Assembly: GCF_024666595.1 (NCBI RefSeq)
Contig: NZ_CP088296.1
Location: 1,116,001-1,180,000, forward strand
Source: Sphingomonas sp. J315
GTDB lineage: Bacteria; Pseudomonadota; Alphaproteobacteria; Sphingomonadales; Sphingomonadaceae
Length of the DNA stretch: 64,000 nt
Reading direction: 5' to 3'
Within the stretch, counting starts at the first letter, position 1; every line of letters starts with the position of its first letter. Below, in pieces: positions 6,664-26,559 of the stretch. A program made the translations under genes and the position numbers. Under the pieces are notes generated by a model, which worked only from the letters and a program-made list of their open reading frames with translations, ran no database searches and was not told the DNA's origin.

Positions 6664-9734
<3,071 letters not shown>

Positions 9735-9864
9735 GCTAACTTTCAACGCCTGATCCCGCCCTTAGCCCCAAAGCGACCAGCCTTAACGAGGCGCGCTGCA
9801 TTCGGTTCCCGGACGATGATGCATTTATCGGCACCTGCATCTCGCGGTGCCCCCCGCACTGGGG

Positions 9865-10368
9865 TCAGCGGCGCTCCAGCGATTGAATCGCACGCGCCAG
9901 CTGTCCGGCGAGGCTCACCATCGCGCTTTCCTCGCGTCCGTCGATTCGAAGCTCCAGTCGCGCGTCGATCCCGATGTTGCGGCGGCGACGATAGTCCGCA
10001 GTTCCCTCGAGCGACATGCGCTCGACCGGGGCAGCGTCGAGCCGCGACTTTCGCGGTCGATCGGGTGACAGGTTCCAGACAGCAGGCGGGACTGGAATGA
10101 CCGGGAGGGCGTGGGCGTCTGAAGATGTCGGGATGTCGATCGCGGTAAGCCGTGCGAGATACCTGTCGCCCGTCATTCCTGTGTCGCGCGGGGGCAATGC
10201 GACCGGGCTATACCGCTCCTCGATGGGCTCACCCCCGCCAACGCGCGCCTCGGCCATCAGCATGCCACGACTGTCGGTCGCGATGGCAGCCGTCGTGACC
10301 GGCTCAACGAGCCCGTCGCGTGCCAGCGCCGGCCCCGCAACCAACGCGGGACACAGCGCCACGATCAT
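9865..10368 (-). CDS. Hypothetical exported protein
   Basis: About 167 residues, not recognised. It starts at an ATG at 10368 preceded by GGGA and has a typical cleavable signal peptide ending near PALARDG. The mature part is rich in proline and arginine, with no recognisable domain; its C-terminal half (GIDARLELRIDGREES) suggests beta strands. It lies 74 bp downstream of the caspase-like gene on the same strand, so it may be the last gene of that operon. A GTG at 10386 is an alternative start. It could be a partner of the upstream exported peptidases; that rests on position only. Confidence 0.6.
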   Translation of the reverse strand: MIVALCPALVAGPALARDGLVEPVTTAAIATDSRGMLMAEARVGGGEPIEERYSPVALPPRDTGMTGDRYLARLTAIDIPTSSDAHALPVIPVPPAVWNLSPDRPRKSRLDAAPVERMSLEGTADYRRRRNIGIDARLELRIDGREESAMVSLAGQLARAIQSLERR

Positions 10369-10442
10369 CCAGTTTCCCGACACCACTGCGTTCCCCCGAT
10401 CAGTGATGCGCAGAATGTGCCGGATTCAACCGGGGTGTGCAA

Positions 10443-12855
10443 TCATTGCCCGCCAGTCCGCTCGGTCTGCCAGCTGAACCGCAGGGCGGAGACCGCGCTC
10501 GGCTTCTTCGCGGGACCGCTGCGGGTCGTCGATCCGACCAAAGCGGAATCGATCAGCTCCTCGATCCCCGTGCCTGCGCCGCCATTGTTGCGCATCCGCG
10601 TTCCCGCAAGCGTCGGCCCGGCGGCGGTGGCGCAGGCCGCGCCGTCCTCCGGCCCCGGCACCACCGGGCATTGCGCCAGCCGCGCATAGCTCGCCGGGAC
10701 GCCGTCGGTGACGTCGCTGACCAGCAGCACCAGGTCGTCGCGCAGGTCGCCGCCGGGGCTGGCGTCGGTCAGGCTGTATTGCAGCACGCCGCTCTCCCCC
10801 GCGCGCAATCGGGTCGGGTTGTCGGCCTTGATCTTGTATCGCCCGTCCTGCCCATCGAACAGCAGAATGCCGCCATCGGGAGAGAAGATCAGCGGGTTCA
10901 CGTACAGGTCGGACTTGCCCGTGTTGGTCACCTTGATGAACAGCCAGTCGCAGCGCTGGAACCGGAAGCCGCCCACCTCGCTGCCGTCACCGCCGATGCG
11001 GCGCGCATCCTTGTCGACTGCATAATAGTCGGCGGTCGTATCGGGGCAGGCGGCGCCTGCCGGAAGCGCCTTGGGCCGCCCGACATAGAATTCGACCGAC
11101 ACGTTCTTCGCCGGATCCTCGCCCGGCTCACCCGTCGCGAGCGCGGGACTCGCCAGTACCCGCTGCAGGCGGCTGAACCGCGTTGCCTTGACCAGCGCGC
11201 CACCGATCGCGAAGCGCACGCGGATCGTCGGGGTGCTGCCGCCCTTGGCCAGTTCGGCGGCGAGATCGATCGCGCCAAAGTCTGCGGTCACCTGCCCGGG
11301 CGGCTGGGTCAGCGCCAGCCTGTCGCCGTTGAACGTCAGCACCAGATCCGCTGCCTCGCCCGGCTGGACGAAGGTCGCACCGACATCGGCGGGCTTGATC
11401 TCCTTGAGCGCCGCCAGTGCCGCCGCCTGTGCCGCGCTGGGGCTGGCGGGGGCGGCGGGCAGCGCGATGCGATAGTCGAGCTGGACCGGCTGCTGCTCGA
11501 TCGTCGCGATCAGCCGCACCTCACGCGACAGCGGCTTGCCGTCGATGTCGCGGACATCGTTCCACGCCTCCGCCGGGATGTCACCGAACGCAGTCGGGAC
11601 CAGGATCGCCTTATACGCATCGGCCCGTTCGACCCGACCGTAGAGGATCACCTTGTCCCCGGTCGGCGCGGCGAGCGCGAGGCCGACGATCGCCCCTTCG
11701 ATCACGCCCTGCAGCTGGCCTGCGCTCATCTCCAGCCGTTCCAGCTTCACGGGATCGGTCGACTTGGTGTCGGCGGTGAACACGCGCGCGGGCTTGTACA
11801 CCGCCCAGCTGCCTGCTCCTGCGGTCGCGCCACTCTTGACCAGCCCGCCCATCAGCGGCCGGTCGATATCGCCGTCGAATTCGGGGCGCGGTGCCTTGGG
11901 GTGCTTGTCGGTTCCGGCAGTCACGCGGTTGGCGAGGTCGCGATAGGAATAGACGCGCGGGTTGTTCCAGTTCGCCATCGCATAGACGGTGAGCAGGCCG
12001 TGCGGTGCCTGCTCGGCGGGATCCGCAAAGGCGGGGGCCATCGCCTGACGCGCCTGCACCGCCGAGGGTGCAGCCATCATGCCGACATAGGCGCCCCAGC
12101 CCGCTCCGCCCTTCTTGGTTTCGCCCGCCAGATCGCGGACAGAATCCGGCATCGCTGACCGCGACGAACTTGCGCGGCGGCAGCTTGAGCTTCGCCTCGA
12201 TCGGCTCGGGCGGAGGCGCGTTCGCGTCCCGCTGCGAATCCCCGGAATGGCAGAAGTCGGCGATGAAGGTGACGTTGCCGCCCTTGGACCGGATCGCGTC
12301 GATTGCCGCGCCGATCTCGTCGTCGAGGATCGCATTCTCGACCTTGGTGTAGTTCGCGTCGGGCGCGCCGGTGTCATAGGGCAGGAACACCTCGTCGCGC
12401 CCGTCCGGCTCAGACCCGGCGACCGCCTCGACCTGTTGCACGCCATGGCCGGAGAAGCTGAGCAGCACCTCGTCGCCCGCCTGGGTGTCGATCGCCGCGC
12501 GCTTGAGCGCGCCGAGGATATTCTCGCGCGTCGCCAGTGCGTCGATCTTCAGGCTGGTGGCGCGCAGTCGTGGGTTCCCCTTCGACGCGAGCAGTTCGGG
12601 CGACGGCTTGTCGGCGAGCAGGATGATGTCGTCGCGCTTGGCCCCGGATCGCATCAGCGTCTCGGCGATCAGCACCGCGTCGTTGTACGTGCCGAGCAGC
12701 GGCGAGGCGATGCCCTCGCGATAACCCGCCACCGCGACGATCACGGCGCGAATCCGGCCCTTGGCCTCTGGCGCGGACGCGGCCGACGGCGCGGGGGGCA
12801 GGCCCGCCGCGATGAGCCCCAGGGCTCCGAGCGCCAGCATGATCTGCCTCAACAT
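10443..12855 (-). CDS. Exported caspase-like (peptidase C14) protein, frameshifted
   Basis: A secreted clan-CD cysteine peptidase of about 800 residues when two frames are joined. The signal peptide ends near SAASAPE. The caspase fold follows, with YNDA (57-60), catalytic His137 in SFSGHGVQ and Cys202 in DFCHSGD. The first frame loses sense after KFVAVSD at about 12150-12160; skipping one base leads into MPDSVRDLAGE and a long C-terminal region without known domains that runs to 10443. Unlike most other shifts here, this site is not in a homopolymer. The gene lies 12 bp after a paralogous small secreted protein and downstream of CHAT and TPR genes. The dyad and signal peptide are seen; proteolytic function in the periplasm is inferred. 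Confidence 0.8.
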
Positions 12856-12867
12856 CGTCCGTCCCCT

Positions 12868-13554
12868 TCAGTTCGAAACGAGGATCGCGCGCGTCCACAC
12901 GCGGCCCTTGTTTTTCAACGTGATACGATATTCCTCGGTGCGGCCCGGAGTCCAGCGACACAGCAGGTCGCGGCGCGCGAGTCCGGACGTCACCGGAGGA
13001 CGATCGGTGCATGCGACGCGGCCCGCAGCATCGGTCACCGCCAGTTCCAGCGCCGCGTCGCCATCGCCGCGCACCCGCACCAGCGCCAGCCGCCCGCCCT
13101 CTGCCCGCGCGCGCATGGTCAATGTGCGCTCGGCGGGCAAATCATGGGTATAGACGATTGCGGCAGGCAGGAATCCGCGGCTCGCCTCGGCCTGCGCTTC
13201 CTCGATCGCCGCGATCTTGTCCGCATCGCCCCCGGCCCAGCCGCGCGCCTCGACAAGCAAAGCTGCGGGCGCGGTGACGGGCAATTGCTCGCTCGCGCTG
13301 GCGCGGCCGATCACCATCGGCGCATTCTCCGCCTGGACCAGCACGAAATCGCCGCTGTCCAGCATCCGCGCGGCGACCATCATCATATCGACATCGCGAT
13401 CGGCGCGCGCGCGCGCGATCAGGTCGCGGACCAGCTCGGCGCGGGCGATCACCGCATCGGGCGGCGTGGCCTCGACATGGCCGTCATGCGCCACCGGCGC
13501 TGCGGCGACGGGCAGTGCGGCGAGCAATAGGGCTAAGGGCATCATCAGGCGCAT
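12868..13554 (-). CDS. Exported two-cysteine protein, paralogue 1 of 3
   Basis: A 228-residue secreted protein from the ATG at 13554, with a clear signal peptide ending near PVAAAPV. It is a divergent member of a three-gene family with the products at 16444 and 17261. Shared features are an N-terminal helix ending in MMMVAARMLDSG, the central IAAIEEAQAEASRG, a C-terminal beta-rich domain with two cysteines (VACTD and LLCRW) and a final strand ending VSN. The C-terminal part resembles a pre-peptidase C-terminal (PPC-like) beta sandwich by eye; I could not confirm this. It sits between the TPR gene and the caspase-like gene, so a role as ligand, inhibitor or substrate of those peptidases is possible but unproven. 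Confidence 0.75.
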   Translation of the reverse strand: MRLMMPLALLLAALPVAAAPVAHDGHVEATPPDAVIARAELVRDLIARARADRDVDMMMVAARMLDSGDFVLVQAENAPMVIGRASASEQLPVTAPAALLVEARGWAGGDADKIAAIEEAQAEASRGFLPAAIVYTHDLPAERTLTMRARAEGGRLALVRVRGDGDAALELAVTDAAGRVACTDRPPVTSGLARRDLLCRWTPGRTEEYRITLKNKGRVWTRAILVSN

Positions 13555-13642
13555 CGGTCTGGCGCAATTCCTGCAGGTTCGAACGAGCCGCATCCTGGCC
13601 CTGCGCCCAGTCTGGCGCGACCGACAGGGTCTGACAATCGGG

Positions 13643-14656
13643 TCACCGCGTCGCGCCCATCCGCCACGCCGCCTCGACCTGTCGCGCAAAGATCGGCGCA
13701 AAATAGCGCAACTCGGCCTGCGCACCGGCATCGTAACCGCGAAAGCTGGCGATCCGCCGTTGCACACCCAGCGCCGCGCGGGCGTAGAATACCCGCGCCT
13801 CGCCAGGGCTGCGGGTCCGGGTCACCTCGCCCATCGCGACTGCCGCCATGATCGCGTCCATATTGTCCCAGATTCCGGTCAGCGCATGGGCGATCACCGC
13901 GCGGCGCAGATAGGGCTCCGCCTCGCCCTCACGCCCCAGTTCGCGCAGGGTCATGCCGAGCGCGACCAAAACCTTGCGCGTCTGCAAATGGTCGCGCCCG
14001 AACTGCGCCTCGTGCAGCGCCAGCGATCGCCGCAATGCCACCTCCGCCTCGGCGTGACGCCCCTGCCCCAGCAGGCCATAGCCAACCGCCATCAACGCGC
14101 CCGCGAGCGACGAACTGGCCTCCGCGACACCCGAATCGACCAATTTCAACGCGCGATTGAGGCTTGCCTCCGCCTCCGCATGCCGCTCGAGCATTGCGAG
14201 GACCAGGCCATGTTCGATCAGCACGCTGGCCACCGCATCGGGCGGTGCATCGGGGGTCGCGGTAAGGATGGCTGCGGCGCGGCGTAAAATCTTCTCGGCC
14301 TCAACCGCGCGATCCTGCGCGATCAGCATGATCGCCAGCCGTGAATTGATCAGCGCAGCGGTCGGCCCATCGGCGCCCTCGAACCGCATCACCGCGACCA
14401 GCGCGGCGCGGAGCAGCACCTCTGCCTCCCGGTCTCGTCCGCGCGCCTGGAGCAACATCCCCAGCGCAATCTGCGCCCCGACATGCTCCTCGCTGCCGGG
14501 CGTCGCGGACCGCAATGTGGCGCGCGCCTCCGCCTCGAACTGCGCGGCCTGATCGACCGGCGGTACGCTCTGCGCGGCTGCCGGGGCAGCCGCTAGTCCG
14601 AGCGCGATGCCAATCAGCGTCGTGCGCACGACGCCGGAGGAGCGCCGCGCCGCCAC
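13643..14656 (-). CDS. Exported TPR protein next to the CHAT peptidase
   Basis: A 337-residue protein with a signal peptide (cleavage near APAAAQS) followed by about five tetratricopeptide-like repeats, recognisable by repeated patterns such as EAEVLLRAAL, EAEASLNRAL and EAEVALRRSL. The GTG start at 14656 comes one base after the CHAT stop, so the two are translationally coupled and their products probably interact. The C-terminus (GYDAGAQAELRYF, then RQVEAAW) recurs in the second exported TPR protein at 23356-25062. TPR arrays serve as protein-binding scaffolds; here one would expect presentation of substrates or signals to the CHAT peptidase in the periplasm. Confidence 0.85.
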   Translation of the reverse strand: MAARRSSGVVRTTLIGIALGLAAAPAAAQSVPPVDQAAQFEAEARATLRSATPGSEEHVGAQIALGMLLQARGRDREAEVLLRAALVAVMRFEGADGPTAALINSRLAIMLIAQDRAVEAEKILRRAAAILTATPDAPPDAVASVLIEHGLVLAMLERHAEAEASLNRALKLVDSGVAEASSSLAGALMAVGYGLLGQGRHAEAEVALRRSLALHEAQFGRDHLQTRKVLVALGMTLRELGREGEAEPYLRRAVIAHALTGIWDNMDAIMAAVAMGEVTRTRSPGEARVFYARAALGVQRRIASFRGYDAGAQAELRYFAPIFARQVEAAWRMGATR

Positions 14657-14657
14657 C

Positions 14658-16430
14658 TCACTTGCCCGGATCGCCGACCAGCGTGAACGCCGCCCAGTAT
14701 TTGGGGCTGACGAACTGGCCCGTCCCTTCGCTGCGCACGGTCTTCATTGCCGCCTGTAACGCGCGCGCGCGCCCAGCGACATCGCCCTTCTGGATGTTGC
14801 CGAAGGTCTGCTGCATCAGCAGCGAGGTCGCTGCGTCGCTGACCGCCCAATGACTGACCAGCAGCGATCGAGTGCCTGCCTGGAAGAATGCGCGGGCGAG
14901 GCCCGACAAGCCACTCGCGTCCTTCCCGTCTCCCGCAGCAGTGTTGCACGCCGACAAGACGACGACATCGGCGGGGATCTTGAGCTCCGTCACTTCGGAC
15001 ATGGTAAGCAGCCCGTCGTCAAGTTCCGTGGCCTGTTTGGGCGGGGTAAACACAAGGCCCGGTTCGGCGTTGTCACCAACCTCGGTCGCGAGCAAACCGT
15101 GGGTCGAGAACACGACAAAGCGCGCTCCAGATATTGCCTTACTCGCCTTGACCGCCGTTTCCGTCGCAGCATCCCCGATCACCACGGTGGATTGCGTCCC
15201 GAACGACTTCTGCAGACTTTCCAGCTCTGCCTTAGCCTGCGGCAGATAGGCCAGCGCGCGCAGCTTTTCCGGATCGGCGAGCTTGCCCTTGTACATCTGG
15301 CCGGCCAACCCTGGGGTCACGCTGCGCCCGGTCTCAGGAGTATAGGCCCCGGCAAGCGTCGGTGCCCCATAAGCGGCAAGCGTAATCCCGCCGCCGCGCA
15401 CCTGCGCGTAGCTGGCCGAACCGGCGCGAACGTCGCAGCCGGGATGGGCATCGGACGGCTTTTCGATCAGCAAACAGCGCAGCGAGCGCAACGCCGACAC
15501 CGAGGGCAGCTCGGCCAGCGCATATTTGTCGATCAGCCAGGGGCTACCCGCGACCGCCGCCGGGTCGGTGTCCGATCCTTCCGGCGGCGCGGTGACGAGC
15601 AATGCCAGCGGAAGCGAGGTGAGCGGGCCGCTGACATTGGTCAACAGCACCTGCTTGCCCTTCAGCACCCCTTCGACCGGCGCGATCAGTTCCTTGTAAA
15701 TCTCATGTGCGAGCTTGCGGTCGAACGCCTTGCCCTGTGGAGCGACGGCGGCGGTACCGGTGCCGGGCGGCGGCTGACGGCCCGATCCGCGCGCGCCGTC
15801 CACTTCCATGCTGGCACGCAGTAGATTGACCTTGGCGGCCAATGCGTCCTGTTTCATCGCTTCCGAGCGCGACCAGGTCGATCCCTCGCGCGTCACAGCC
15901 CAAGTGTAACTGGCGTCGTCGGACACGAGGATGACGACCATCGCCTCATCGGGGTTGAGCAGCTTCTGCACGGCGGCGATGTCGAGCGCCTTGGGGCGCG
16001 TCATGTCGAAATATTGGGGGAAATCCTTCGCGATCTTCGCTTCGATCACATCGACCTCGGCGCGCAGCGCGGCGCGGCGCTGGGTCAGCGCGCGACGTTC
16101 TTCCTCCGGCACCTGCGCGCCGCGTTCGATCAGCGCGCTGAACTGGCGATCGACCGCCTCCATCTCGGCAAGTTTCTTGTCGCGCTCCTGCTCCAGGACC
16201 GCGAGCGGACCGCCGCCCGCTGCAAAGCGCGCGGTGGTGCGGTCGAGCGCGGCTGCCGCGCCGGAAATCTGGGCATATTGCGCCGCCTCGAACGCCTCTG
16301 ACCGCAGCACTTCGGGCGACGGCACCGGCTCGATCTTGATGTCGGGCGTGGTCTGGGCGGACAGCAACGCTGCAGCAAGCGGCAGGGCAACCGCGCACTT
16401 GAGTCTCATGGACGGGTTGGTGCGCGGCAT
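14658..16430 (-). CDS. Exported CHAT-domain (caspase-like) peptidase
   Basis: About 590 residues. The ATG at 16430 is preceded by AAGGAG at six bases, better than the adjacent GTG at 16433. A signal peptide (to about residue 25) is followed by an alpha-helical, coiled-coil region (75-150) and a C-terminal CHAT domain (about 260-590). The catalytic dyad is visible: His444 in FSTHGLL and Cys495 in LSACNTAAG, followed by the typical GLARAFFQAG and HWAVSD segments. CHAT peptidases are usually cytoplasmic and fused to TPRs; here the enzyme is exported and the TPR part is a separate, coupled gene. The upstream neighbour is a small two-cysteine protein ending 13 bp before. Function is likely regulatory proteolysis; the substrate is unknown. 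Confidence 0.92.
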   Translation of the reverse strand: MPRTNPSMRLKCAVALPLAAALLSAQTTPDIKIEPVPSPEVLRSEAFEAAQYAQISGAAAALDRTTARFAAGGGPLAVLEQERDKKLAEMEAVDRQFSALIERGAQVPEEERRALTQRRAALRAEVDVIEAKIAKDFPQYFDMTRPKALDIAAVQKLLNPDEAMVVILVSDDASYTWAVTREGSTWSRSEAMKQDALAAKVNLLRASMEVDGARGSGRQPPPGTGTAAVAPQGKAFDRKLAHEIYKELIAPVEGVLKGKQVLLTNVSGPLTSLPLALLVTAPPEGSDTDPAAVAGSPWLIDKYALAELPSVSALRSLRCLLIEKPSDAHPGCDVRAGSASYAQVRGGGITLAAYGAPTLAGAYTPETGRSVTPGLAGQMYKGKLADPEKLRALAYLPQAKAELESLQKSFGTQSTVVIGDAATETAVKASKAISGARFVVFSTHGLLATEVGDNAEPGLVFTPPKQATELDDGLLTMSEVTELKIPADVVVLSACNTAAGDGKDASGLSGLARAFFQAGTRSLLVSHWAVSDAATSLLMQQTFGNIQKGDVAGRARALQAAMKTVRSEGTGQFVSPKYWAAFTLVGDPGK

Positions 16431-16443
16431 CACTTGCTCCTTG

Positions 16444-17163
16444 TCAATTCGTCACCAGCGCCACGCCGGTGCCGGTCTCCCCAAGATTGATCGCCTGAAT
16501 CGAGAAAGGGCCAGTCCAGATCGGATTGACCCGGCAATAGAGGGTCACGTTGCCGGACATGTCCTGACAGGCCAGGCCTCCATTTTCATCGAAGACCTTG
16601 AGCGCCAGCGGAGTCGCCGAATCCCGGCGCATCCCGATCACCTTGGGTTCGCCCCCGCGAAACGTCGCGCGGACGGTCCAGACCGTCTTGGCCGGCACAT
16701 ATTGGGTGGTGCGGATTGAGTTGCATGGACACACGATACCCTTGCCCGCGTCGGCACGGGCGGTCTCGATTTCGGCAAGCAGATCCGCGTCGCCCGCGGC
16801 GAACTGGGCCGCCTCGGCAAAGAGATCGGCGCCGGTCAGCGGCTTGGCGCTGCCCTCCGCCTTTGCCCCGCTGTCCAGCGTTCCCTTGTCGGTCCCCTCC
16901 TTGACCGGAGCGGATTCGACAATCTTCGCCGCGACGATCATCGCGCGCGCATCCTTGGTCGCGCGCGCATAATCGGCGAGGCGATAGCCGAGCACCAGCG
17001 CCTCCGCAGCTTCTGAGCCTTCGTTATCGGGTAAAATCTTGGGTGCCGGATCGGCAAGGTCGCGGATCTGGGCCGTCGCGGGTCCAGCGGCGAACAGGGA
17101 TGCAGTCGATATCACGGCTGCCAGCAGAAGTTGCCGGGCGGTGATCAGAGTCCGGGAGCGCAT
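16444..17163 (-). CDS. Exported two-cysteine protein, paralogue 2 of 3
   Basis: A 239-residue secreted protein. The ATG at 17163 follows GGGAGG, and the signal peptide is cut near PATAQIR. It is closely similar to the next gene upstream (17261-17953) over almost its whole length: YRLADYAR, KDARAMIVAAK, GADLFAEA, RRDSATP, CQDMSGNVTLYCR and a C-terminus ending ALVTN. It differs by an inserted CPC pair in the middle, giving two extra cysteines. The copy at 12868 is more distant. The close match points to a recent tandem duplication. The product has no known function; the conserved cysteine pair suggests a disulphide-stabilised periplasmic domain. Confidence 0.82.
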   Translation of the reverse strand: MRSRTLITARQLLLAAVISTASLFAAGPATAQIRDLADPAPKILPDNEGSEAAEALVLGYRLADYARATKDARAMIVAAKIVESAPVKEGTDKGTLDSGAKAEGSAKPLTGADLFAEAAQFAAGDADLLAEIETARADAGKGIVCPCNSIRTTQYVPAKTVWTVRATFRGGEPKVIGMRRDSATPLALKVFDENGGLACQDMSGNVTLYCRVNPIWTGPFSIQAINLGETGTGVALVTN

Positions 17164-17260
17164 CACGTCCTCCCCATCGACGCGCGGCAAGGCCGCTGCG
17201 TGCTTGAGAAAGCTACCGCCCCGGGATAAGTCCGCACCCCGGGGCGAGCAGCCGTTTCGC

Positions 17261-17953
17261 TTAGTTGGTCACCAGCGCAGCGCCGGTGCCATAGGCACCA
17301 TAGTTGATCGTCTGGACCGAGAACGGGCCGGTCCAGATCGGGTTGACGCGGCAGTACAGCGTCACATTGCCCGACATGTCCTGGCAAACCAGATTGCCGT
17401 TCTCGTCGAAGATCTTCAGGCCGACCGGGGTCGCCGAGTCACGGCGCACGCCGACGACCAGCGGCTCACCGCCACGGGCAGCGAAGCGGACGGTCCACAC
17501 GGTGTTGCCGGGGACATACTGGACGGTGCGAATTGCGCCGCCCACGACACCGCGCGATGCTTCGGCCTGAGCTTCCTCGACCGCAGCGACAATGTCGGCG
17601 TCACCCGCAGCGAGCGTCTTCGCCTCGGCGAACAGGTCGGCTGCGGTGGTCACCTTCGCGGTGCCGGTACCCTTGCCGGTGCCTTCGATCTTGCCCTTGT
17701 CGGTGCCTTCCTTGACGGTGACCGAGTCGACCATCTTGGCGGCGACGATCATCGCGCGCGCATCCTTGGCGGTGCGGGCATAGTCGGCCAGGCGATAGCC
17801 CAGCGCCAGCGTGTCGACAGCCTTCGAGCTTTCGGTCGCCGGCACTTCCTTGTCACCGAGGTTCGTGCCCTTCTTGTCCTGCGCGACCGACGGCGAGGCC
17901 AGCATGCTTGCGGCAACCAGTGCCATCGCCATCTTCTTGTTGAACTTAACCAT
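17261..17953 (-). CDS. Exported two-cysteine protein, paralogue 3 of 3
   Basis: A 230-residue secreted protein starting at the ATG at 17953, with GAGGAGA upstream. The signal peptide is cut near SPSVAQD, followed by a lysine-rich linker. The conserved parts are YRLADYAR, AVEEAQAEASRG, VRRDSATPVGLKIF, CQDMSGNVTLYC and a C-terminal strand ending GAALVTN. A 276-bp gap with a hairpin lies upstream, so it is probably the first gene of the transcription unit running through the second copy, CHAT, TPR, copy 1 and the caspase-like gene. It could be a structural or sensing component; no enzymatic motif is visible. Confidence 0.82.
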   Translation of the reverse strand: MVKFNKKMAMALVAASMLASPSVAQDKKGTNLGDKEVPATESSKAVDTLALGYRLADYARTAKDARAMIVAAKMVDSVTVKEGTDKGKIEGTGKGTGTAKVTTAADLFAEAKTLAAGDADIVAAVEEAQAEASRGVVGGAIRTVQYVPGNTVWTVRFAARGGEPLVVGVRRDSATPVGLKIFDENGNLVCQDMSGNVTLYCRVNPIWTGPFSVQTINYGAYGTGAALVTN

Positions 17954-18194
17954 TACCTATGTCTCCTCACTCTCCGGGCCTGCTCCCAAGCCGGCCTCGC
18001 GAACTGATCCCTCGATCAGGCAGGTTCTTCTTTAATGTGGCCCCCGCCCGCGCGACACTAACAGTTTCAGTCCTTGTTTCCATATCAAACTTGCCGCGAA
18101 GTCTCTGATTCGTGACAGTTTAGAATGGCTTTCGCCACTATTCGGGCGGTTTCCGGTTACATGAACGCGACTCCCGGCCCAAGCCTACCCAAGA

Positions 18195-18228
18195 TGGGAA
18201 TGCGCCGGGACTTGCCCGGCGCATCCCA
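18195..18228 (-). terminator. Hairpin terminator after the HtrA gene
   Basis: A near-perfect inverted repeat (arms 18195-18209 and 18215-18228, five-base loop) begins two bases after the stop of the HtrA gene at 18230. It can end the sensor/protease operon before the CHAT operon starts. The tail downstream on the minus strand is only weakly T-rich. Confidence 0.6.
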
Positions 18229-18229
18229 A

Positions 18230-19654
18230 TCACCGTTCCAGCTTGAGCTGTACCAGGCTGTTGCCGCGCGCGACGAACAACACTGCGCCACCCGCGATAT
18301 TCTGGAAGGCGCGGGCAAGTTCCGCAGCGCTCTGGACTTGCTCGCCATTGACCCCGACGATGATGTCGCCGACCGCCAGGCCCGACCGCGCCGCAGCCGA
18401 ACCGGGCTGAACCGTTGCGACGACCGCGCCGCGCAGCTGCTGTGGCACCTTGTCGGTCGCGTTGACGTCGCGGAACGTCGCGCCGAGTGCCGCCAGTCCT
18501 GCCCCGCCGGTCGAAGGCCGCGTGACCGCAACCGGCCGGGGTGCCTCGACCGTCACCTGCGCCGTCCCGGTCGAGCCGCCGCGCCGATAGCCAAGCGCGA
18601 TTGTCTTGCCCGGTTCAAGCACGCCCAGGATCGCGGTCAGGTTGCCCGGGCCCTCGATCGACCGGCCATCGGCGGAGGTGATGATGTCGCCCGACTTGAG
18701 GCCCGCCCTGGCCGCCGGACTGTCGGGCGAGACTTCGGCAACCAGCGCGCCGCGCGTCGATCCGCTGCCCGCCGCCTCGGCGGTGACCGGGCCGACCGTC
18801 ACGCCGATCCGCCCGCGCTTGACGCTGCCGTTGCGGCGCAGCTGGTCGGCGACCGCCATCGCCATGTTGATCGGAACGGCAAAGGCGATGCCGCTATTGT
18901 CCCCTGACTTGGACCAGATCGCAGTGTTGATGCCGATCAGCCGCCCGCGACTGTCGATCAGCGCGCCGCCCGAATTGCCACTGTTCACCGCCGCATCGGT
19001 CTGGATGAAATCCTGAAGCCCGTCGCCGATTCCCGTGCGCCCCAGGCCGGAGATCACGCCCATGGTCAGCGTCTGGTCGAACCCGAAGGGGTAGCCGATC
19101 GCGAAGGCGAGGTCGCCGACCTCGATCCTGCCACTGTCGCCCACCTCGATCGCGCGCAGCCCGGTCGCCTTGACGCGGAGCAGCGCGATGTCGGTCTGCG
19201 GATCGCGGCCGACCACCTCGGCATCGACGACGCGGCCGTCATGGAGCTGGACCTTGAACGCGGTCCCCTTCTCGACGACGTGGTTGTTCGACAGGATTTC
19301 GCCGCGCGCCGCGTCGATGATCACCCCCGACCCGCTGCCGATCGGCTGGGGAGCGCCCTGCGGTGCCTGACCCTGCGGTCCCGCCTGCGCCGATGTCGTC
19401 TGCCCCCGGAACGGATCGCCTTGGCCTTCGCGCGACGCGGTGCGCTCGCCGTCCTGCTGCTTGTGGCCGAGCACGATCACCTTGACCACGCTCGGCGCAA
19501 CCGCCTTGAGGTCGCGGGCATAGCTATAGACGCCGCGCTCGCTGTCATAGGGTGCGGTCTGTGCCGCCGCGCTCACCGTGAGCGGCGGCGTGCCCAGCAT
19601 CGCGATGGCGGCGACCCCGGCGAGCAGCCGTCCGTGAAAACTAGACCTCATCAT
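18230..19654 (-). CDS. Periplasmic HtrA/Deg serine protease with two PDZ domains
   Basis: A 474-residue S1C protease and chaperone acting in the periplasm. The signal peptide ends near SAAAQT. The catalytic triad is His125 (SNNHVV), Asp155 (QTDIALLR) and Ser228 (NSGNSGG). Two PDZ domains follow (about 290-370 and 395-474), each with a GDII motif. A low-complexity Q/G/P-rich loop (75-105) precedes the protease core. The start overlaps the end of the sensor-kinase gene by 14 bp, so the protease is made together with the two-component system, possibly as its output or as part of its sensing mechanism. It is the second HtrA gene in this operon. It resembles DegP/DegQ (Do) but not closely enough to choose one. 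Confidence 0.93.
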   Translation of the reverse strand: MMRSSFHGRLLAGVAAIAMLGTPPLTVSAAAQTAPYDSERGVYSYARDLKAVAPSVVKVIVLGHKQQDGERTASREGQGDPFRGQTTSAQAGPQGQAPQGAPQPIGSGSGVIIDAARGEILSNNHVVEKGTAFKVQLHDGRVVDAEVVGRDPQTDIALLRVKATGLRAIEVGDSGRIEVGDLAFAIGYPFGFDQTLTMGVISGLGRTGIGDGLQDFIQTDAAVNSGNSGGALIDSRGRLIGINTAIWSKSGDNSGIAFAVPINMAMAVADQLRRNGSVKRGRIGVTVGPVTAEAAGSGSTRGALVAEVSPDSPAARAGLKSGDIITSADGRSIEGPGNLTAILGVLEPGKTIALGYRRGGSTGTAQVTVEAPRPVAVTRPSTGGAGLAALGATFRDVNATDKVPQQLRGAVVATVQPGSAAARSGLAVGDIIVGVNGEQVQSAAELARAFQNIAGGAVLFVARGNSLVQLKLER

Positions 19655-21060
19655 GTCCCCTTTCCCTCTGGTTCTGATCTACATCGTCCTGCGCGGGCAA
19701 TGTGATTTCGATGCGAAACCCGCCCGCGCGATTGAAAGCATGAACATTGCCGCCCGCGCGCAGCGCGACGGTGCGGACAAAGGCGAGCCCCAGCCCGTGG
19801 CTGTCCGCCCCGCCGCTGGAATAGCCGGGCTCGAAGATCCGCTCGGTCCGGCTCGGTTCGATCCCCCGGCCCGTCATTGTCGACCGCGACGGTCACCGTA
19901 TCGTCCGATCGCGTGACCGCACAGCGGATCGTCGATTCAGGGGTCGCGAACTTAACGGCATTGCCCAGGACATTCTCGACCATCCGGTCGAACAGGTCAC
20001 CCGCCACGCAGACCCGCGCGTCGACCGCGTCCAGTTCAAACTCCAGATCCTTGTCGTCACCCAGATAAACGAACATGTCGTCGATCAGCTGGCGGATCCG
20101 TGCGCCGGGATCGACACTGTCCGCCTCGTGCCGTCGCGACACTTCGGCGTCGATGATGCCGAGCAGCATGCGGCAGCGCTTGTCCATCGTCACCAGCTTC
20201 GCGTCGGCGTCGGCGATCAGCGGCTCGCCCGGCACCTTGAGCGCGAGCGCCTCGAGATGCTTGCGCGCGACCATCACCGGCCCGCGCAGATCGTGCGCGA
20301 CATGGCGGTGGAGCCGCCTGAGGCCACCGATCATATCCTCTGACCGCGCCAACAGCGCGTTGAGATGCTGGGCCAACAGCCGAAACTCGGGTTGGCCCTC
20401 GTCCACAGGGGCGCGCTCGGCAAAGCCGGTGCGGTCGGCGCGGTCGAGCAGGGCGTTGAACGCATCGAGCCGGGTACGCCACCCGCGCATCAGCGCCCAG
20501 GCAAGCAATCCGGCAAGCAGCAGGAAGCCGAAGCCGACCCCCGCGGCAAGCAGATAGGCGCGCGTCACCAGCCGTGGATCGGGACTGAATATCCGCGCGC
20601 TCAGAAACGCGCGGCCATCGCCCAAATCGACGACGGTGCCGACTGCGGTCGCATCCGCGCGCTGGCATGCGGTCCCGGCGGGAACGCGCAAGCGCACCTC
20701 GCCCTTGCCCGCCGGCCAGTCGAGCCGGGGCGTGCCGGTCAGCGCACCATCCGCTCCGCGATAGAGGAACAGCGCCCGCGCCCGCTCGCCGCTGTCGCAG
20801 CGCCCGCCATCGGTCGCCTGTGACGCGCGCGCCGCGACCATCGTCAGGATTTCGGCATCGCGCTCCTCGACGGACAGGCCCGGGGCAAGGCTGTCGATCT
20901 TGCTCGACAGCACCGCCGCGTCGGCCTGCGCCCGCACCATCGCCACCTCGCGCGCGTTCATCGACACCATCTGCAACAGGCCGAGCGTCAAGCCGACCAG
21001 CGCGACGGCGGCGAGCGCGCCGATCACCAAAGTGGTACGAAGCGGAAGCCAGCGGAGCAT
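19641..21060 (-). CDS. Membrane sensor histidine kinase, frameshifted near the ATP lid
   Basis: About 470 residues when two frames are joined. TM1 (8-30), a periplasmic sensor loop (31-165) with an internal Cys pair, TM2 (168-190) and a HAMP-like linker are followed by an H-box, His256 in VAHDLRGPV, and an ATPase domain with ENVLGNAVKFA and VDNDGPG. A run of five C at 19863-19867 (one too many) breaks the frame just after VDNDGPG; the other frame supplies the F and G2 boxes (IFEPGYSS, HGLGLAFVR) and ends at 19641. It lies five bases after the response regulator and overlaps the HtrA start. Cognate partner of the regulator at 21066. Confidence 0.85.
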
Positions 21061-21065
21061 GCGAA

Positions 21066-21872
21066 CTAGCGGCCACCCTCCATACCCGCCAGGTTGCGCA
21101 ACGCGAAACCCTGCGCCCAGATATTGGTCACCAGCGGATGGCAGTCGTCCGGAATGTCCGGGCATTGCCGCTTGAGCGACTTGCGCAGCCGCTTGATTGC
21201 CTGATCGACGGTGTTGGCGAACTCCTCGGGGAAATGGCTCCACCCCTTGCCGATCCAGCAGCGGTCCCACAGCATCGACTGGCTCAGCGGATTGCCACGT
21301 TCCTTGTACAGCTCGACCAATATGTCCGCCTCGCGGCTGGTCAGCTGGAGCAGACGTCCGTTGCACCGCACGTCCTTGGTATCGGCATCGACCTCCAGCG
21401 GCGCGCAGGTCCACCCCTTGCTGCGCATCGTCGGCTTGCGGCGGCGCAGTTGCGCGGCGACACGCGCGACCAGTTCCTCGCTGGTCGCGGGCTTGGGCAC
21501 ATAATCATCGGCACCGCGCGCGATCAGGCCATGGATGCGCTGTTCCTCGCCCCCGAGCAGCGAATAGACGAGCGCGGGAACATCGGGATCGGTCTTGAGA
21601 CCATTGGGGCGACGGCGCACCCGGTCGAGCACCTCGAGCCCTTCGATCCCCGGATTGATCCGGTCGAGCACCAGCACGTCATAGGCGTTGACCTCCAGTG
21701 CCGCGAGCGCGGCGTCGCCGGTCTCGAACAGGTCGACACTCTCGCACCCGGCGGCTTCCAGCGCGGCCTTCATTTCCGCGCCGATCTCGTCCTCCAGGAT
21801 GAGTGCGCGACATCCGGCAAAGGTGTCGGCAATGTTCTGCGCGGCTTCAGCGTCCAGTCTCAACTTACTCAT
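21066..21872 (-). CDS. OmpR-family response regulator
   Basis: A 268-residue two-component regulator. The receiver (about 20-135) has acidic ILEDE, phospho-acceptor Asp70 in VLVLDRIN and Lys127 in VPKPA; the C-terminal winged helix (about 160-265) has the OmpR-type LTSREADILVELY and a recognition helix containing NTVDQAIKRLRKSL. The ATG at 21872 is chosen for the GGAGGG ahead of it. It lies 14 bp downstream of one HtrA gene and five bases upstream of its kinase. The gene order HtrA-RR-HK-HtrA suggests that it controls envelope proteolysis, perhaps including its own operon. An unusually long N-terminus (about 20 residues) precedes the receiver. Confidence 0.92.
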   Translation of the reverse strand: MSKLRLDAEAAQNIADTFAGCRALILEDEIGAEMKAALEAAGCESVDLFETGDAALAALEVNAYDVLVLDRINPGIEGLEVLDRVRRRPNGLKTDPDVPALVYSLLGGEEQRIHGLIARGADDYVPKPATSEELVARVAAQLRRRKPTMRSKGWTCAPLEVDADTKDVRCNGRLLQLTSREADILVELYKERGNPLSQSMLWDRCWIGKGWSHFPEEFANTVDQAIKRLRKSLKRQCPDIPDDCHPLVTNIWAQGFALRNLAGMEGGR

Positions 21873-21886
21873 CGTCACACCCTCCG

Positions 21887-23308
21887 TCACAACGGTCCCC
21901 GCGGAAAGCGGCGCGGCACGCCGGGGCGCCGAGCCTTGGCCGCTTCGGCGCTGAGCGGGAGCGCGACATGCAGCGTCCCCTGTCCCGCGCGCTGGATGCG
22001 CAGCACCGCCACATCACGCTTCGATGCCTTGATCGCGGCCATTGCCGCAGCCGCGTCGCGTGGCGCGACGCCATCGACCGCCAGCAATTCGTCGCCCTCG
22101 TACAAGCCATACATCTGTCCGATCGAAGCCTCCTCTACCTTGCCGACCAGAACGCGCGCACCATCCGCACGCAGCGCGAACCCCAGCGTGAACGGCCCTG
22201 CGGCAGCCCCGCTCATGTCCATGGCCAGTGCCGCGACCTTGCCGCGCTCGCCGGCGAGATCGTCGTCGGCCTCAAGCGGGACCGCGAGCGCAACCGACTT
22301 GCCGTCGCGGACGATCTCGACCCTGACCTTGTCGCCGGGCTTGCTGTCGATCAACGCCATCGACAGATCGCGCACGACCTCCATCTTGCGCCCATCGACG
22401 CTCAGCAGCAGATCGCCGATCTTGAGCCCGCCGCGCGCCGTCGCACCATCGCTGACCGCATCAATGATCAGACCCGTCTTGCCCGGAGCGCCCAGCGCCT
22501 CGGCCATCCCGGCATCCGCGCTGCTCGCGGTGACGCCCAGCCGGCCGCGCACGACCTTGCCATCGGCGACAAGCTGGGGTGCGATCTTCGCTGCCAGTTC
22601 GGCAGGAATCGCAAGGCCAATGCCGATGTCGAAGATGGTCTCGGGCGGCGTTGCCGTATTGATACCGATCACTTCCCCCTCCTCGGTGATCAGCGGCCCC
22701 CCACTGTTACCCGGGTTGAGCGCCGCATCATGCTGGATGAAGTTCACCGGCCATGCGACGTCATAGGCGCGGTCATAACCGCTTATGATCCCGGAAGTAA
22801 CCGAGAAACGGTTGCCCATCGGGTTGCCCAACGCGAAGACCTTTGCGCCCAGCGGCAACTTGGATGACTTCGCCAGTTTGAGTACCGGGAGTGGCCCGTC
22901 TGCCTCGATCTTGACGATCGCAAGATCGGTGCGCCCGTCACGTCCGATCACCTTGCCCTGGTAGCGCTTGCCATTGGCAAAGGTGACTTCGACCGTATCG
23001 AGTTTCGCGACGACATGCGCGTTGGTGAGGATCAGGCCCGAGGCATGGATCACGAAGCCGGAGCCGCCCGCCGCCTCGGTATCGCCATTCTGCTTGCGCG
23101 CGGCCTCGTCCTGCGGGCTGATCGCGACCACCGCCTTCATCGCGCGGTCGATGGCAGTTTCATCCTGGGCGGGCGCGGCCACCTTGGGCGTATCGGGCAT
23201 CGCCGCTGCCCGCGCGGTGGTCGGGAGCGCAACACCAAGACAGAGCGCCGCGCCGAGGAACCAGCCGAGTGTGCGGCGGGTCAGGTTCACGGATGGATTG
23301 GGGTTCAT
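21887..23308 (-). CDS. Periplasmic trypsin-like (S1C) protease with two PDZ-like domains
   Basis: A 473-residue HtrA-type protease. The chosen ATG (23308) gives a signal with a twin-arginine-like TRRTLGWF, so Tat export is possible; an ATG at 23350 would lengthen it by 14 residues. The triad is His98 (LTNAHVV), Asp128 (RTDLAIVK) and Ser202 (NPGNSGG). PDZ-like segments lie around 275-355 and 385-450, the second more divergent. It differs clearly from the HtrA at 18230, so this is not a recent duplication. It is followed closely by the response regulator and preceded by the TPR gene, whose corrected end lies only about 50 bp away. Confidence 0.92.
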   Translation of the reverse strand: MNPNPSVNLTRRTLGWFLGAALCLGVALPTTARAAAMPDTPKVAAPAQDETAIDRAMKAVVAISPQDEAARKQNGDTEAAGGSGFVIHASGLILTNAHVVAKLDTVEVTFANGKRYQGKVIGRDGRTDLAIVKIEADGPLPVLKLAKSSKLPLGAKVFALGNPMGNRFSVTSGIISGYDRAYDVAWPVNFIQHDAALNPGNSGGPLITEEGEVIGINTATPPETIFDIGIGLAIPAELAAKIAPQLVADGKVVRGRLGVTASSADAGMAEALGAPGKTGLIIDAVSDGATARGGLKIGDLLLSVDGRKMEVVRDLSMALIDSKPGDKVRVEIVRDGKSVALAVPLEADDDLAGERGKVAALAMDMSGAAAGPFTLGFALRADGARVLVGKVEEASIGQMYGLYEGDELLAVDGVAPRDAAAAMAAIKASKRDVAVLRIQRAGQGTLHVALPLSAEAAKARRPGVPRRFPRGPL

Positions 23309-23355
23309 GGAAGTTCCGGATACTGACTTCAGATGCCCCTTTCCTGTCATTTGGT

Positions 23356-25062
23356 TCAGGTGAAAGCGACGGTCAGGATCAGACGGACGGGGTCAGCGGG
23401 CGGGCTTTGCCAGGCTCCAGGCTGCGCGGACCTGATCGCGGAAAACATGCGTGAACCGCCCCATCTCCGCCTGTGCGCGGGTGTCGAATCCGGCCCCGGT
23501 CGCCATCCGCGCCAGCGCCTGGCCGCCCGCCTCGCGCAGTAGCGTCCGCGCCAACGGCAGCGCGCCGGATTGTCCGATCAGAAAGGCACCATAGCTTCCC
23601 CCAGCAGGATGCGCTGGACATGATCCGGACGGAACGCTGCACGCGCGTCGGCATCTGCGCGCGCATACCAGAGGCGCGCCTTGGCGGAATCGCCTTCCTG
23701 GTCCGCAAACGCCGCAAGGCTTCCTGCGGACTGCACGGCGATCTGTTGTCCTTGCACCCCGAGCGACTTTGCTGCTGCATAATTGGCGTCCAGTAGTGGT
23801 ATCGCCTCACGGCGCCGACCCGCAGCGCCCAACGCGACCGCCAGATTGTTACGCGCCATCACCGCGCGCGCATGTGCGGGCCCGAAGGCGCGCTCGGCAT
23901 AGCTCAGCACCTGGCGCTGCACATCGATCGCCTGCCCGGTTTCGCCGAGACGGGCGAGGACGGTCGCAAGGTTGGTCAGGATCGCGATCATCTCGTCTAT
24001 ATTTGCAACGCCGGACGCCTTGATCACTTCGACAGACCGGCCAAGCATCTCCGCTGCCGCCTCGATCTGGCCCGACTCCAGCAAGACAAGACCGAGATTA
24101 TTATATGCCAGCCCGGTGAAATTGCTCGCCTCCCCAAAGAAGCGCAGCCGAACCGCGAGCGCCTCGCGCGCAGCTGCCTCCGCCTCGCGATATTCGCCGG
24201 TGCGGACCAGCAGGACGCTCAGGCCCGACAGGCTGTCGGCCAGATCGGGGCTGTCGCCCTCCGCGCGGCGCATCGCCACCGCCTCCCGCCACAGGGCGAC
24301 CGATTCCTGCGTCCGATTCTGCTGCTCGAGGCAATGCGCCAGCGCCTCGCGCGACCGGATTGTCTGGCTCGCGCCCGGCCCCATCAGCGCCGACAGCCGC
24401 GCGATCGAAATGCGCAGCGTCGCCTCTGCCTCGGTCAGTCGTCCGAGCCGCGTCAGCGCCGCCCCTTCCATCATCCGGAACACCGCGCCTTCGATCGTGT
24501 CGCCTGCCATCTCGACCGCACGACGCGCGAGCGGCAGAGCCTCGGCGTGCCGACCAAGCATCACCAGATTGTTCGCGCGACGACCGATGTAAGTGGCGAG
24601 CGCCGGGTCGCCCGCCAGGATCTTCTCGGCACTCGCCAGCGCTGCGACGAACGCCGGCTCCGCCTCGCCATGCCGCCCCAACCGCTCCAGCGCGGCCCCC
24701 AGGGTGAGGTTGGCCAGCGTCGACATGCCGGTCGATCCGTCGAACGTCTCTCCGATCGCGACGGCCCGGCGCGCGACAGCCACCGCCTCCGCCGTTCGGC
24801 CAGCCTCGCCCAGGACGACTGCGAGGCTCGATACCAGCAATATGCAGGGGCGCTGTTGCTCGGGCGTCGCCGCATCTCCGCCATTCGCGGCAATACACGC
24901 TTTCGTATCCGGCTCGATCAGCGCGAGTGCCTTGCGCGCATCGCCCGCATCCATCGCGGCGTCAAATTCCGGGCTGGTCTGGATCACGTCGACCTCGACC
25001 GCTGCCGGTTCGGCATCCTGGATGGTCAGCGCGGCGGCGGCGAGCAGCAATGGGTAGATCAT
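23356..25062 (-). CDS. Exported TPR protein 2, frameshifted near its end
   Basis: About 570 residues if repaired. The ATG at 25062 (strong GAGGGGG ahead) begins a short signal peptide (MIYPLLLAAAALTIQDA). Many TPR repeats follow (for example EAVAVARRAVAIGE, EAEAAAREALAV and AIDVQRQVLSYAE). One frame stops at 23578; in a neighbouring frame the sequence continues with GSYGAFLIGQSG and ends AGFDTRAQAEMGRF, RDQVRAAW, matching the C-terminus of the TPR protein at 13643. The shift falls in a run of five C at 23599-23603, one base short. First gene of the operon with the HtrA proteases and the two-component system. Presumably a scaffold for the proteases. Confidence 0.82.
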
Positions 25063-25167
25063 CCCGTCCCCCTCGCAACGAGCTTCGCGCTCCGGACCGA
25101 TCAATGCAAGCGCTACACGCCGGGATCGGTGGACTGGAATATCGTGCTGGGGCCGCCGTGCCGGTAT

Positions 25168-25845
25168 CTATCGCGCGCTGGCGGCACCGCGTACCGGCCC
25201 GATCAGCCAGGCCAGGACGATGCCGAACAGGAAGTTCGACGTTCCGACCTCGATCGCGTGAACCAGCCGGACATCGCCCGGCATATATGGATTCTCGGGA
25301 AGCAGCGGGGCGATGCCCCCGATCACCGAAAAGGCAAGTCCCAGCACCAGCGGAGCAGCGCGCGGACCGGTACGCAGCCAGAGCCACGCCGCTGCGACGA
25401 AGATCAGCGCACGCGGCACCTGCAGCAGTGCGACCAGCCATTGCGGCGGCAGCATCTCGGGCGTGTAGAAATGCGCGAGATGGGGCCAGGCGATCGTCCC
25501 GGCCGTGAAATAGAGGACGATATAGGCGGCTATCACGCCGAGCAGCCGCAGCGGCGTGGCCCTGAGTGCGACCGTCGCCGAACCCGCGCCACGCCAGCGG
25601 CCGAGGATCGTCACGGCGAGCGCGGCGAACAGCGCCAGCACCACCAGCATGACGCCCATTGGCACCAGCGCCTCGCGCAGCGGCATGACACTGAACACCA
25701 CCGCCTCGATCAGCGTGTTGAACTGGCCGACGACCCAGGCCAGCGCGAGCAGCGCGGTCGCAAGCGGACGCCCCCGCGCGGGTGAGACATAGCCCGCCAG
25801 CGCCATCGCCGCGAGGGTGAGCAACAGGTATAAAGCGACCATCAT
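25168..25845 (-). CDS. Integral membrane protein of unknown function
   Basis: A 225-residue very hydrophobic protein with about six predicted membrane segments (such as LYLLLTLAAMALAGY, VLALFAALAVTIL and LLGVIAAYIVLYF). No transporter or enzyme motif was recognised. Its start overlaps the stop of the TetR gene as ATGA, so both are made from one message and the regulator probably controls it. The context suggests a small stress- or compound-responsive membrane protein, but no function is claimed. It ends 105 bp before the exported TPR gene. Confidence 0.75.
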   Translation of the reverse strand: MMVALYLLLTLAAMALAGYVSPARGRPLATALLALAWVVGQFNTLIEAVVFSVMPLREALVPMGVMLVVLALFAALAVTILGRWRGAGSATVALRATPLRLLGVIAAYIVLYFTAGTIAWPHLAHFYTPEMLPPQWLVALLQVPRALIFVAAAWLWLRTGPRAAPLVLGLAFSVIGGIAPLLPENPYMPGDVRLVHAIEVGTSNFLFGIVLAWLIGPVRGAASAR

Positions 25846-26444: not shown

Positions 26445-26451
26445 AAATGAC
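26440..26451. promoter_or_regulatory. Short inverted repeat over the tetR start
   Basis: GTCATAAATGAC, with the flanking direct repeat ATGGTCA on both sides, covers the start codon of the TetR gene. It is a plausible autoregulatory operator, but short. Confidence 0.35.
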
Positions 26452-26501
26452 TATGGTCACTTTTACTGGAATGGGTCAAGGGTCGCGCAATTTAGTAACA
26501 T

Positions 26502-26530
26502 TTGACACCAAATGCCGCCGGGGGTGTAAC
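26502..26530 (+). promoter_or_regulatory. Sigma-70 type promoter of hppD
   Basis: TTGACA (26502-26507), a 17-base spacer and TGTAAC (26525-26530) lie 30 bp before the hppD ATG. Spacing and both boxes fit a housekeeping promoter. Confidence 0.55.
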
Positions 26531-26559
26531 GCGGGATCAACTTCTGCGGAGTCCTCGAC

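Follow-up and report, generated by a model that had tools for sequence, protein, structure and literature searches.

Gene content of the locus

The window, a 64,000-nt stretch of the Sphingomonas sp. J315 genome (contig NZ_CP088296.1, positions 1,116,001 to 1,180,000), is numbered here from its first letter. Positions 9865 to 25104 are filled by twelve genes, A to L, all on the minus strand, as stated in the initial annotation made from the sequence alone (our gene caller was a simple one, which missed some genes and over-extended others). Gene A (9865 to 10386) encodes a 173-aa protein of no family, found among nine compared loci only in L076, L077, and L081 (59 to 67% identical). Gene B (10443 to 12855) encodes a caspase/metacaspase-like Peptidase_C14 protein with a long C-terminal extension, and gene E (14658 to 16433) encodes an exported-looking CHAT peptidase. 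Three small proteins, each with a pair of cysteines as annotated, proved to be mutually homologous and are referred to as the SML family: gene G (17261 to 17953; 230 aa), a second copy in gene F (16444 to 17190), whose presence varies between strains, and a third copy in gene C (12868 to 13719), whose start is not fixed. The two annotated TPR proteins were both matched by Pfam, namely, the exported-looking product of gene D (13643 to 14656), which is strongly strain-variable, and the strain-variable product of gene L (23578 to 25104). The two proteases annotated as S1C are HtrA proteins with Trypsin_2 and PDZ domains in Pfam, encoded by gene H (18230 to 19654; DegP/HtrA-like) and by gene K (21887 to 23350; HtrA-like), the stop of which overlaps the gene J open reading frame by 4 nt. 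The annotated two-component pair was likewise recovered by Pfam, with an OmpR-type response regulator (gene J, 21066 to 21890) beside a HATPase_c sensor histidine kinase (gene I, 19651 to 21069). An Rfam search of positions 9000 to 27000 returned nothing at the gathering threshold.

Ten signal peptides had been proposed, and a simple heuristic found eight of the ten, the exceptions being the products of genes A and L; the same heuristic was positive for 225 of 762 unlabelled open reading frames, with membrane proteins counted in. The description of the gene block was confirmed in part. Genes B and I had been taken as single open genes, but both are split by frame changes (near 12.15 kb and 19.87 kb, respectively); neither has a single open frame in the window, and both are intact in relatives. 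Since the window genome was assembled as a single contig whose ends seem to be repeated, an assembly error is likely for both frame changes.

The caspase-like and CHAT proteases

The N-terminal piece of gene B in the window matched Peptidase_C14 at 44.6 bits (cutoff, 21.4), and gene E matched CHAT (PF12770) at 168.6 bits (cutoff, 24). Both of the clan-CD dyads that had been read from the sequence were borne out by alignment: all 18 aligned caspases have H144/C209 (L056 numbering), and all 5 aligned CHATs have H445/C496 (window numbering). The caspase carries the p20 motifs, with an Asp two residues before the catalytic Cys, and a profile built from its intact relatives matched solved metacaspases; its predicted structure had a pLDDT of 70.9 and a pTM of 0.53. 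When solved structures were searched by sequence with CHAT, the matches were confined to designed proteins or seemed to arise by chance. In the available text of PMC5756287, the characterized C14 members other than caspases are strictly specific for Arg or Lys at P1, and gene B may, judging from these homologues, share this specificity.

Conserved Cys pairs beyond the active sites were found in CHAT (C320/C333 in gene E), in the SML proteins, in the caspases of the full clusters, and in the extracytoplasmic sensor region of the kinase. These pairs are in agreement with an oxidizing compartment.

A small-protein family with an invariant basic residue

The SML proteins had no match above the cutoff in Pfam or NCBIfam, and a sequence search of solved structures with SML again returned designed proteins or apparent chance matches only. 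Structure prediction now gives this unannotated family an architecture: a helical domain, a linker, and a PPC-like beta-sandwich. The fold of the predicted beta domain resembles PPC and similar jelly-roll domains of secreted proteases, with GOLD and other sandwich domains scoring alike; unlike PPC, SML is a separate protein with a helical N-terminal domain and has no Pfam sequence match. In gene G, the linker comprises residues 131 to 139 and includes R134-G135, while C190/C201 lies in the beta-sandwich. The R134 codon, computed from the gene coordinates, occupies positions 17552 to 17554 on the minus strand, and R134 is a candidate P1 residue.

Linker position 134 was Arg or Lys in all 43 aligned sequences; among 81 further homologues, many of them close relatives of gene G, 80 had one of these two residues. 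The further homologues came from scoring the 8000 candidates that shared the most words, which yielded 84 proteins, and three of these were identical to A7 members and were excluded from the linker count. No second well-filled column of the alignment was basic only. In the structure model, residue 134 falls in a loop of lower confidence (block pLDDT, 69), and the domains on either side are better predicted. The R/K-G of the linker could be structural instead of a cutting site.

Conservation of the cluster across genomes

The core order of HtrA, response regulator, kinase, HtrA, small Cys-pair protein, CHAT, TPR protein, small protein, and caspase was colinear in seven other Sphingomonas/Blastomonas-type genomes (in G131 the second HtrA was seen by tblastn only), and this colinear recurrence indicates that the block is not due to chance. 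The homologues in relatives were thus linked rather than scattered, and by the heuristic most of the products look exported. Together with the Cys pairs, these two results give good support to an exported, kinase-linked set as had been proposed, whereas the "cascade" and the surveyed signal of the same proposal remain inferred; the earlier interpretation is therefore supported in part.

Among 149 genomes of the family, the SML profile matched 23, all of which also carry CHAT (23/23; hypergeometric P = 6e-9). When the eight seed genomes were left out, CHAT was present in 15 of 15 SML genomes (P = 2.6e-6); phylogeny is not taken into account in this test, and the loci behind the models were themselves reached by following SML. 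CHAT as such was found in 72 of the 149 genomes, and since most of these (49/72) have no SML match, CHAT does not depend on the SML/kinase system. Co-occurrence of the caspase with SML did not exceed chance, either in all SML genomes (8/23; P = 0.07) or in the nonseed genomes (3/15; P = 0.55). If SML is a general substrate, then CHAT must be the general protease.

Among the nonseed SML matches listed, 14 of 16 have a top-ranked related response regulator no more than about 2.3 kb away, and 8 of 16 have CHAT within 10 kb. These neighbor counts cover 29 of the 30 SML matches (one partial match in G000 was omitted), 35 response regulators (the top 33 listed, down to G106, plus those of G099 and G068), and a part of the CHAT and caspase matches in genomes with SML or a top-ranked regulator. 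Near the SML-containing triads of G033, G065, G076, G092, G116, and G144, no CHAT was found within 10 kb among the matches listed; two of these six triads are on short contigs, and all six genomes carry CHAT elsewhere. A giant gene between the triad and the distant CHAT was considered for G092, G076, and G144 and was rejected, as the stretches examined there hold many separate open reading frames and no such gene.

Full clusters were found in two related genera only, and this confinement, like the lack of SML in most CHAT genomes, is what might be expected if unrelated exported genes were held together by shared ancestry alone. However, the same families recur in other arrangements in distant genera and families, and the proximity of nonseed SML genes to response regulators and the adjacency of SML to the kinase and CHAT genes also speak against a coincidental neighborhood, which we consider highly improbable.

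Some related loci have neighbors of another kind. In L063, L132, and L140 they lie beside very large exported-looking proteins, and two of these three loci also have a gene for a TPR plus outer-membrane-barrel protein, with Slam profile matches below the cutoff. In Brevundimonas L089, the SML-CHAT pair is preceded by two S9 peptidases and a DUF1223 gene. Such neighbors would suit a processing station in which certain exported proteins are matured by CHAT and the caspase, their supply being tuned by the linked kinase, but the window cluster and its close relatives have no such large partner, and this explanation seems very unlikely to us.

Variation between strains

Between L076 and L081, TPR protein D is 30% identical and TPR protein L is 55% identical, whereas the other compared genes are 86 to 99% identical. 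The catalytic half of the caspase, like the TPR proteins, differs sharply between close strains. In the window, it groups with L056 (support, 100), unlike the CHAT, which falls with L076, L077, and L081 (support, 100). The TPR and caspase variation between strains is mosaic. Presence within the genus is patchy, with a match in four genomes, that of the window included, and none in at least 20 listed.

This divergence, the conflicting groupings, and the patchy presence would all fit an envelope defense, self-recognition, or cell-death module, in which the variable TPR proteins and an exchanged catalytic domain of the caspase detect phage, competitors, or kin, with the exported proteases doing damage either to the cell itself or to the intruder. 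PADLOC also returned "caspase" and HtrA matches; these cover generic protease domains only and were set aside as evidence for defense. No Pfam match in the cluster points to a toxin, an NTPase core, or a sensor of nucleic acids, and the linked two-component system suggests regulation over one-shot killing. A defense role is accordingly regarded as unlikely.

Linkage of the kinase and a possible signaling mechanism

The two HtrA genes directly flank the response regulator-kinase pair, and in the full cluster the kinase gene is directly followed by HtrA (gene H), not by SML. Where the kinase and SML genes adjoin in the smaller loci (11 pairs), they share 1 or 4 nt in 10 cases. The gene immediately ahead of CHAT is SML in 34 loci, a set that includes many close Brevundimonas relatives, was mostly recovered by the CHAT search, and excludes L080, L082, and L087 as duplicates of L056, L047, and L061. 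The SML proteins therefore look like the connection between the kinase and the proteases rather than minor components.

From this linkage, which is observed directly, we tentatively favor an envelope proteolysis-signaling system in which the kinase has SML as its accessory and the cutting of SML by a protease signals through the two-component system. SML would sit in the periplasm and serve the kinase as CpxP serves CpxA, and the exported clan-CD proteases would cut it at the invariant R/K-G of the linker. The cutting protease would be CHAT in most genomes, with the caspase acting as well in the window cluster. Parting of the helical and beta domains may then alter the kinase output, and the response regulator may target the conserved DNA that precedes SML-CHAT-TPR-SML-caspase. 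Fragments or misfolded inputs could be cleared by the HtrA proteases, and the variable TPR proteins, together with the caspase domain, could determine which envelope event triggers cutting.

On the other hand, the flanking HtrA genes, and the CpxP/DegP precedent in the available text of PMC4160245, could reflect a Cpx/HtrA-like quality-control regulon, with the proteases as degradative effectors and SML as an adaptor or chaperone that is not cut as a signal. Such a regulon would leave the R/K-only linker column and the TPR/caspase mosaic unexplained, and in the cases known, CHAT proteases and metacaspases act on specific targets and do not degrade proteins in bulk (for Craspase, see the available part of PMC11127173). 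We consider quality control somewhat unlikely.

Bacterial caspase-like and CHAT proteases are discussed mostly as cytoplasmic defense or cell-death enzymes. A more far-reaching form of the signaling interpretation, possible but doubtful, is that the cluster represents an undescribed signaling class in which an exported CHAT and/or metacaspase cuts a periplasmic accessory at an invariant Arg/Lys, thereby switching the kinase, while the protease and TPR modules are exchanged between strains. It would then parallel caspase and Craspase signaling, but in the periplasm and coupled to a kinase, and would possibly be a further case of kinase control by periplasmic accessory proteins. The role of exported bacterial caspase relatives could be tested through one mutation (R134) and a reporter. 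A search of the open-licence literature, mostly titles and listings, found no report of an exported CHAT/caspase two-component cluster.

Relation to known systems

CpxP is an all-helical protein of the LTXXQ family. SML is not a member of that family, has no Pfam match, and has a predicted beta-sandwich C-terminal domain, and the cluster adds CHAT and caspase proteases. The likeness to Cpx lies in the combination of a response regulator, a sensor kinase, a small periplasmic accessory, and DegP/HtrA (CpxR-CpxA-CpxP and DegP; available text of PMC4160245). As in Cpx, the sensor kinase and the OmpR-type regulator are adjacent in the window, and a small exported-looking accessory is encoded alongside in the smaller loci, with HtrA in between in the window.

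Craspase, of type III-E CRISPR, is RNA-guided and cytoplasmic. The CHAT of the cluster, in contrast, appears to be exported and belongs to a locus with a sensor kinase, and no Cas7-11/gRAMP or other CRISPR-related match was found among the Pfam matches of the twelve genes. In Craspase, the TPR-CHAT protease Csx29 cuts Csx30, a protein of the same operon (PMC11127173, available part), and SML is the candidate operon partner for cutting by CHAT.

The NTP-dependent conflict systems of Kaur et al. (2020) also bring caspase-like and trypsin-like peptidases together in operons, but they are built on NTPases, and the term "two-component" is absent from the available text (PMC7159879). Pfam scans of the cluster found no MoxR/vWA, STAND, or similar NTPase core, the kinase HATPase being the only match of this kind. 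With metacaspases and orthocaspases (C14), gene B shares the p20 motifs, the His/Cys dyad, and the Asp. Some cyanobacterial orthocaspases are reported with HisKA/HATPase_c domains (PMC8283722, available text), whereas gene B is exported-looking with a long C-terminal extension, has a separate kinase, and is accompanied by SML, CHAT, and TPR neighbors.

Conserved DNA upstream of gene G

A palindrome, CTGATC-N4-GATCAG (18004 to 18019), lies upstream of gene G and was rejected as its operator, with 18 occurrences in the genome. The element TGTYAGTGTC (18054 to 18063, minus strand), about 110 nt upstream of gene G, is present in the window and at the matching place in all seven relatives compared.

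The protease genes form a conserved block with a two-component system

The run of twelve minus-strand genes proposed in the initial annotation is present at positions 9865-25104, and Pfam confirmed its families: a caspase (Peptidase_C14), a CHAT protease, two HtrA-like proteases (Trypsin_2+PDZ), TPR repeats, and a HATPase kinase (HK) paired with a response regulator (RR) containing a winged-helix output domain. Gene A and the three small proteins (genes C, F and G; a Cys-pair family, here SML) had no Pfam or NCBIfam match above the cut-off.

The homologues are also linked elsewhere. The core order HtrA, RR, HK, HtrA, SML, CHAT, TPR, SML, caspase was found again in seven genomes besides the window: Sphingomonas BWSM_12 (L076), R647 (L077), bin06 (L081), S. 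tagetis (L078) and ACE_PRO40 (L080, corresponding to G259/L056), Blastomonas marina (L082, corresponding to G059/L047), and G131 (L046), in which the second HtrA was missed by the gene caller and seen by tblastn. Part of the order lies on a short contig (L079). CHAT identity to the window ranges from 95% down to 60-61%; the TPR genes vary in number and length between these loci, and TPR gene L is restricted to the Sphingomonas side.

Ten of the products had been assigned signal peptides. A simple heuristic agreed for eight and was negative for two, and was also positive for 225 of 762 unlabelled ORFs. Outside the active-site cysteine, CHAT carries an invariant pair, C320/C333, in all five aligned sequences, and the caspase has a C-terminal Cys pair in 5/5 full-cluster rows; among caspases outside full clusters, just one of these two cysteines is common (15/18). 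The extracytoplasmic stretch of the kinase contains a Cys pair in all seven full-cluster kinases aligned and in none of the eight others. These pairs are consistent with an oxidising compartment but do not prove it. The protease set is real, conserved and exported-looking, and an unnamed family of small proteins, SML, ties it to the two-component system.

SML links the kinase and CHAT genes

The SML profile matched 23 of the 149 family genomes, and all 23 were among the 72 CHAT-positive genomes (hypergeometric 6e-9, phylogeny ignored). When the eight model-building genomes were left out, SML occurred with CHAT in 15/15 (2.6e-6, phylogeny again ignored). Among the rows entered for the 16 non-seed SML hits, a top-ranked RR of the same kind lay within ~2.3 kb (start to start) of 14 and a CHAT match within 10 kb of eight; no RR was seen among these rows for the hits in G039:C42 and G103. 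Caspase co-occurred significantly with CHAT (present in 23 of the 31 genomes with a caspase, p 0.001) and not with SML (8/23, p 0.07; non-seed 3/15, p 0.55).

SML lies directly 5' of CHAT on the same strand in 34 loci, 26 of them from one set of 43 non-duplicate loci. Where the kinase and SML genes are adjacent (11 pairs), the end of the former overlaps the beginning of the latter in 10, by 4 nt in eight and 1 nt in two; in the eleventh the predicted ORF is too long. SML is rare in the class (4/337 genomes, first narrower model) and in the phylum (6/299, later model), the window's own genome included in both. It is patchy inside the genus, and copy F is present or absent depending on the strain.

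The element TGTYAGTGTC occurred nine times in the 37 sequences scanned (1.6 expected from mononucleotide shuffles). Eight occurrences lie in the intergenic stretch that separates HtrA H from SML G, ~110-120 nt before SML, at the matching place in the window and 7/7 relatives compared; the ninth is elsewhere in the window. The element was absent from the remaining scanned loci, which are smaller versions of the cluster. A nearby palindrome was discarded as not specific.

Besides this conserved upstream element, the linkage and the gene overlap, SML has a conserved basic linker residue (R134 in gene G). SML may bind the kinase, its cutting by a protease would alter kinase output, and the RR could govern the SML-CHAT operon. 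Such cleavage signalling is our best reading, at slightly less than an even chance. The most similar working system is the Cpx response (CpxR, CpxA and CpxP, with DegP). There, CpxP inhibits the autophosphorylation of CpxA, and a misfolded pilus subunit displaces CpxP (PMC4160245). By Pfam, SML falls outside the CpxP family. That a CHAT protease can cut a protein encoded in the same operon is known from Craspase (PMC11127173). The NTPase-based conflict systems of Kaur et al. 2020 (PMC7159879) include caspase-like and trypsin-like peptidases; their NTPase core was not found in the window cluster. A connection between caspases and kinases is in itself nothing new, since HisKA/HATPase_c domains are reported in some cyanobacterial orthocaspases (PMC8283722).

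Strain variation, frame changes and neighbouring genes

Between the window and L077, identity is 95% for CHAT, 96% for RR and 94% for the two HtrA proteins, versus 68% for the caspase catalytic half, 71% for TPR D and 77% for TPR L. Between L076 and L081, TPR D and TPR L share 30% and 55%, and the other compared genes 86-99%. The window groups with L056 in the tree of the caspase catalytic half (support 100) and stands on the L076/L077/L081 side in the CHAT tree (support 100); the C-terminal caspase part does not group the window with L056. Because these trees disagree, the catalytic domain was most likely exchanged.

The caspase and kinase genes, whole in relatives, are each broken in the window by one frame change, near 12150 and 19870, less than 8 kb apart. 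The host genome is one contig of 3.93 Mb with an identical, equally scoring CHAT match near both ends (G000:C1:20452-21357 and 3915525-3916430), and sequencing or assembly error is therefore the likelier reason for the frame changes. The duplicate matches look as if a circular chromosome had been left unclosed.

In the host genome and G259, a second SML-like pair (L048:8498-9433, L057:9542-10432) has two neighbours, a large gene and one that resembles dapF, judging by its start only; a gene of this kind is also near some Brevundimonas SML-CHAT loci. In one Brevundimonas genome, SML-CHAT comes after two S9 peptidases and a gene of the DUF1223 family (L089:3734-9064). One protein combines caspase and FGE-sulfatase domains (L058:5828-7465), one gene from a caspase-SML pair. 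Upstream of kinase genes, a ~300-aa exported-looking protein (L133:12350-13225, L134:12904-13809) matches SH3_3, above the cut-off in L133 only. Very large exported-looking ORFs stand beside some kinase-SML or CHAT loci (L063:10376-17877, L132:13651-19999, L140:6781-12060), two of the three accompanied by a TPR/beta-barrel gene.
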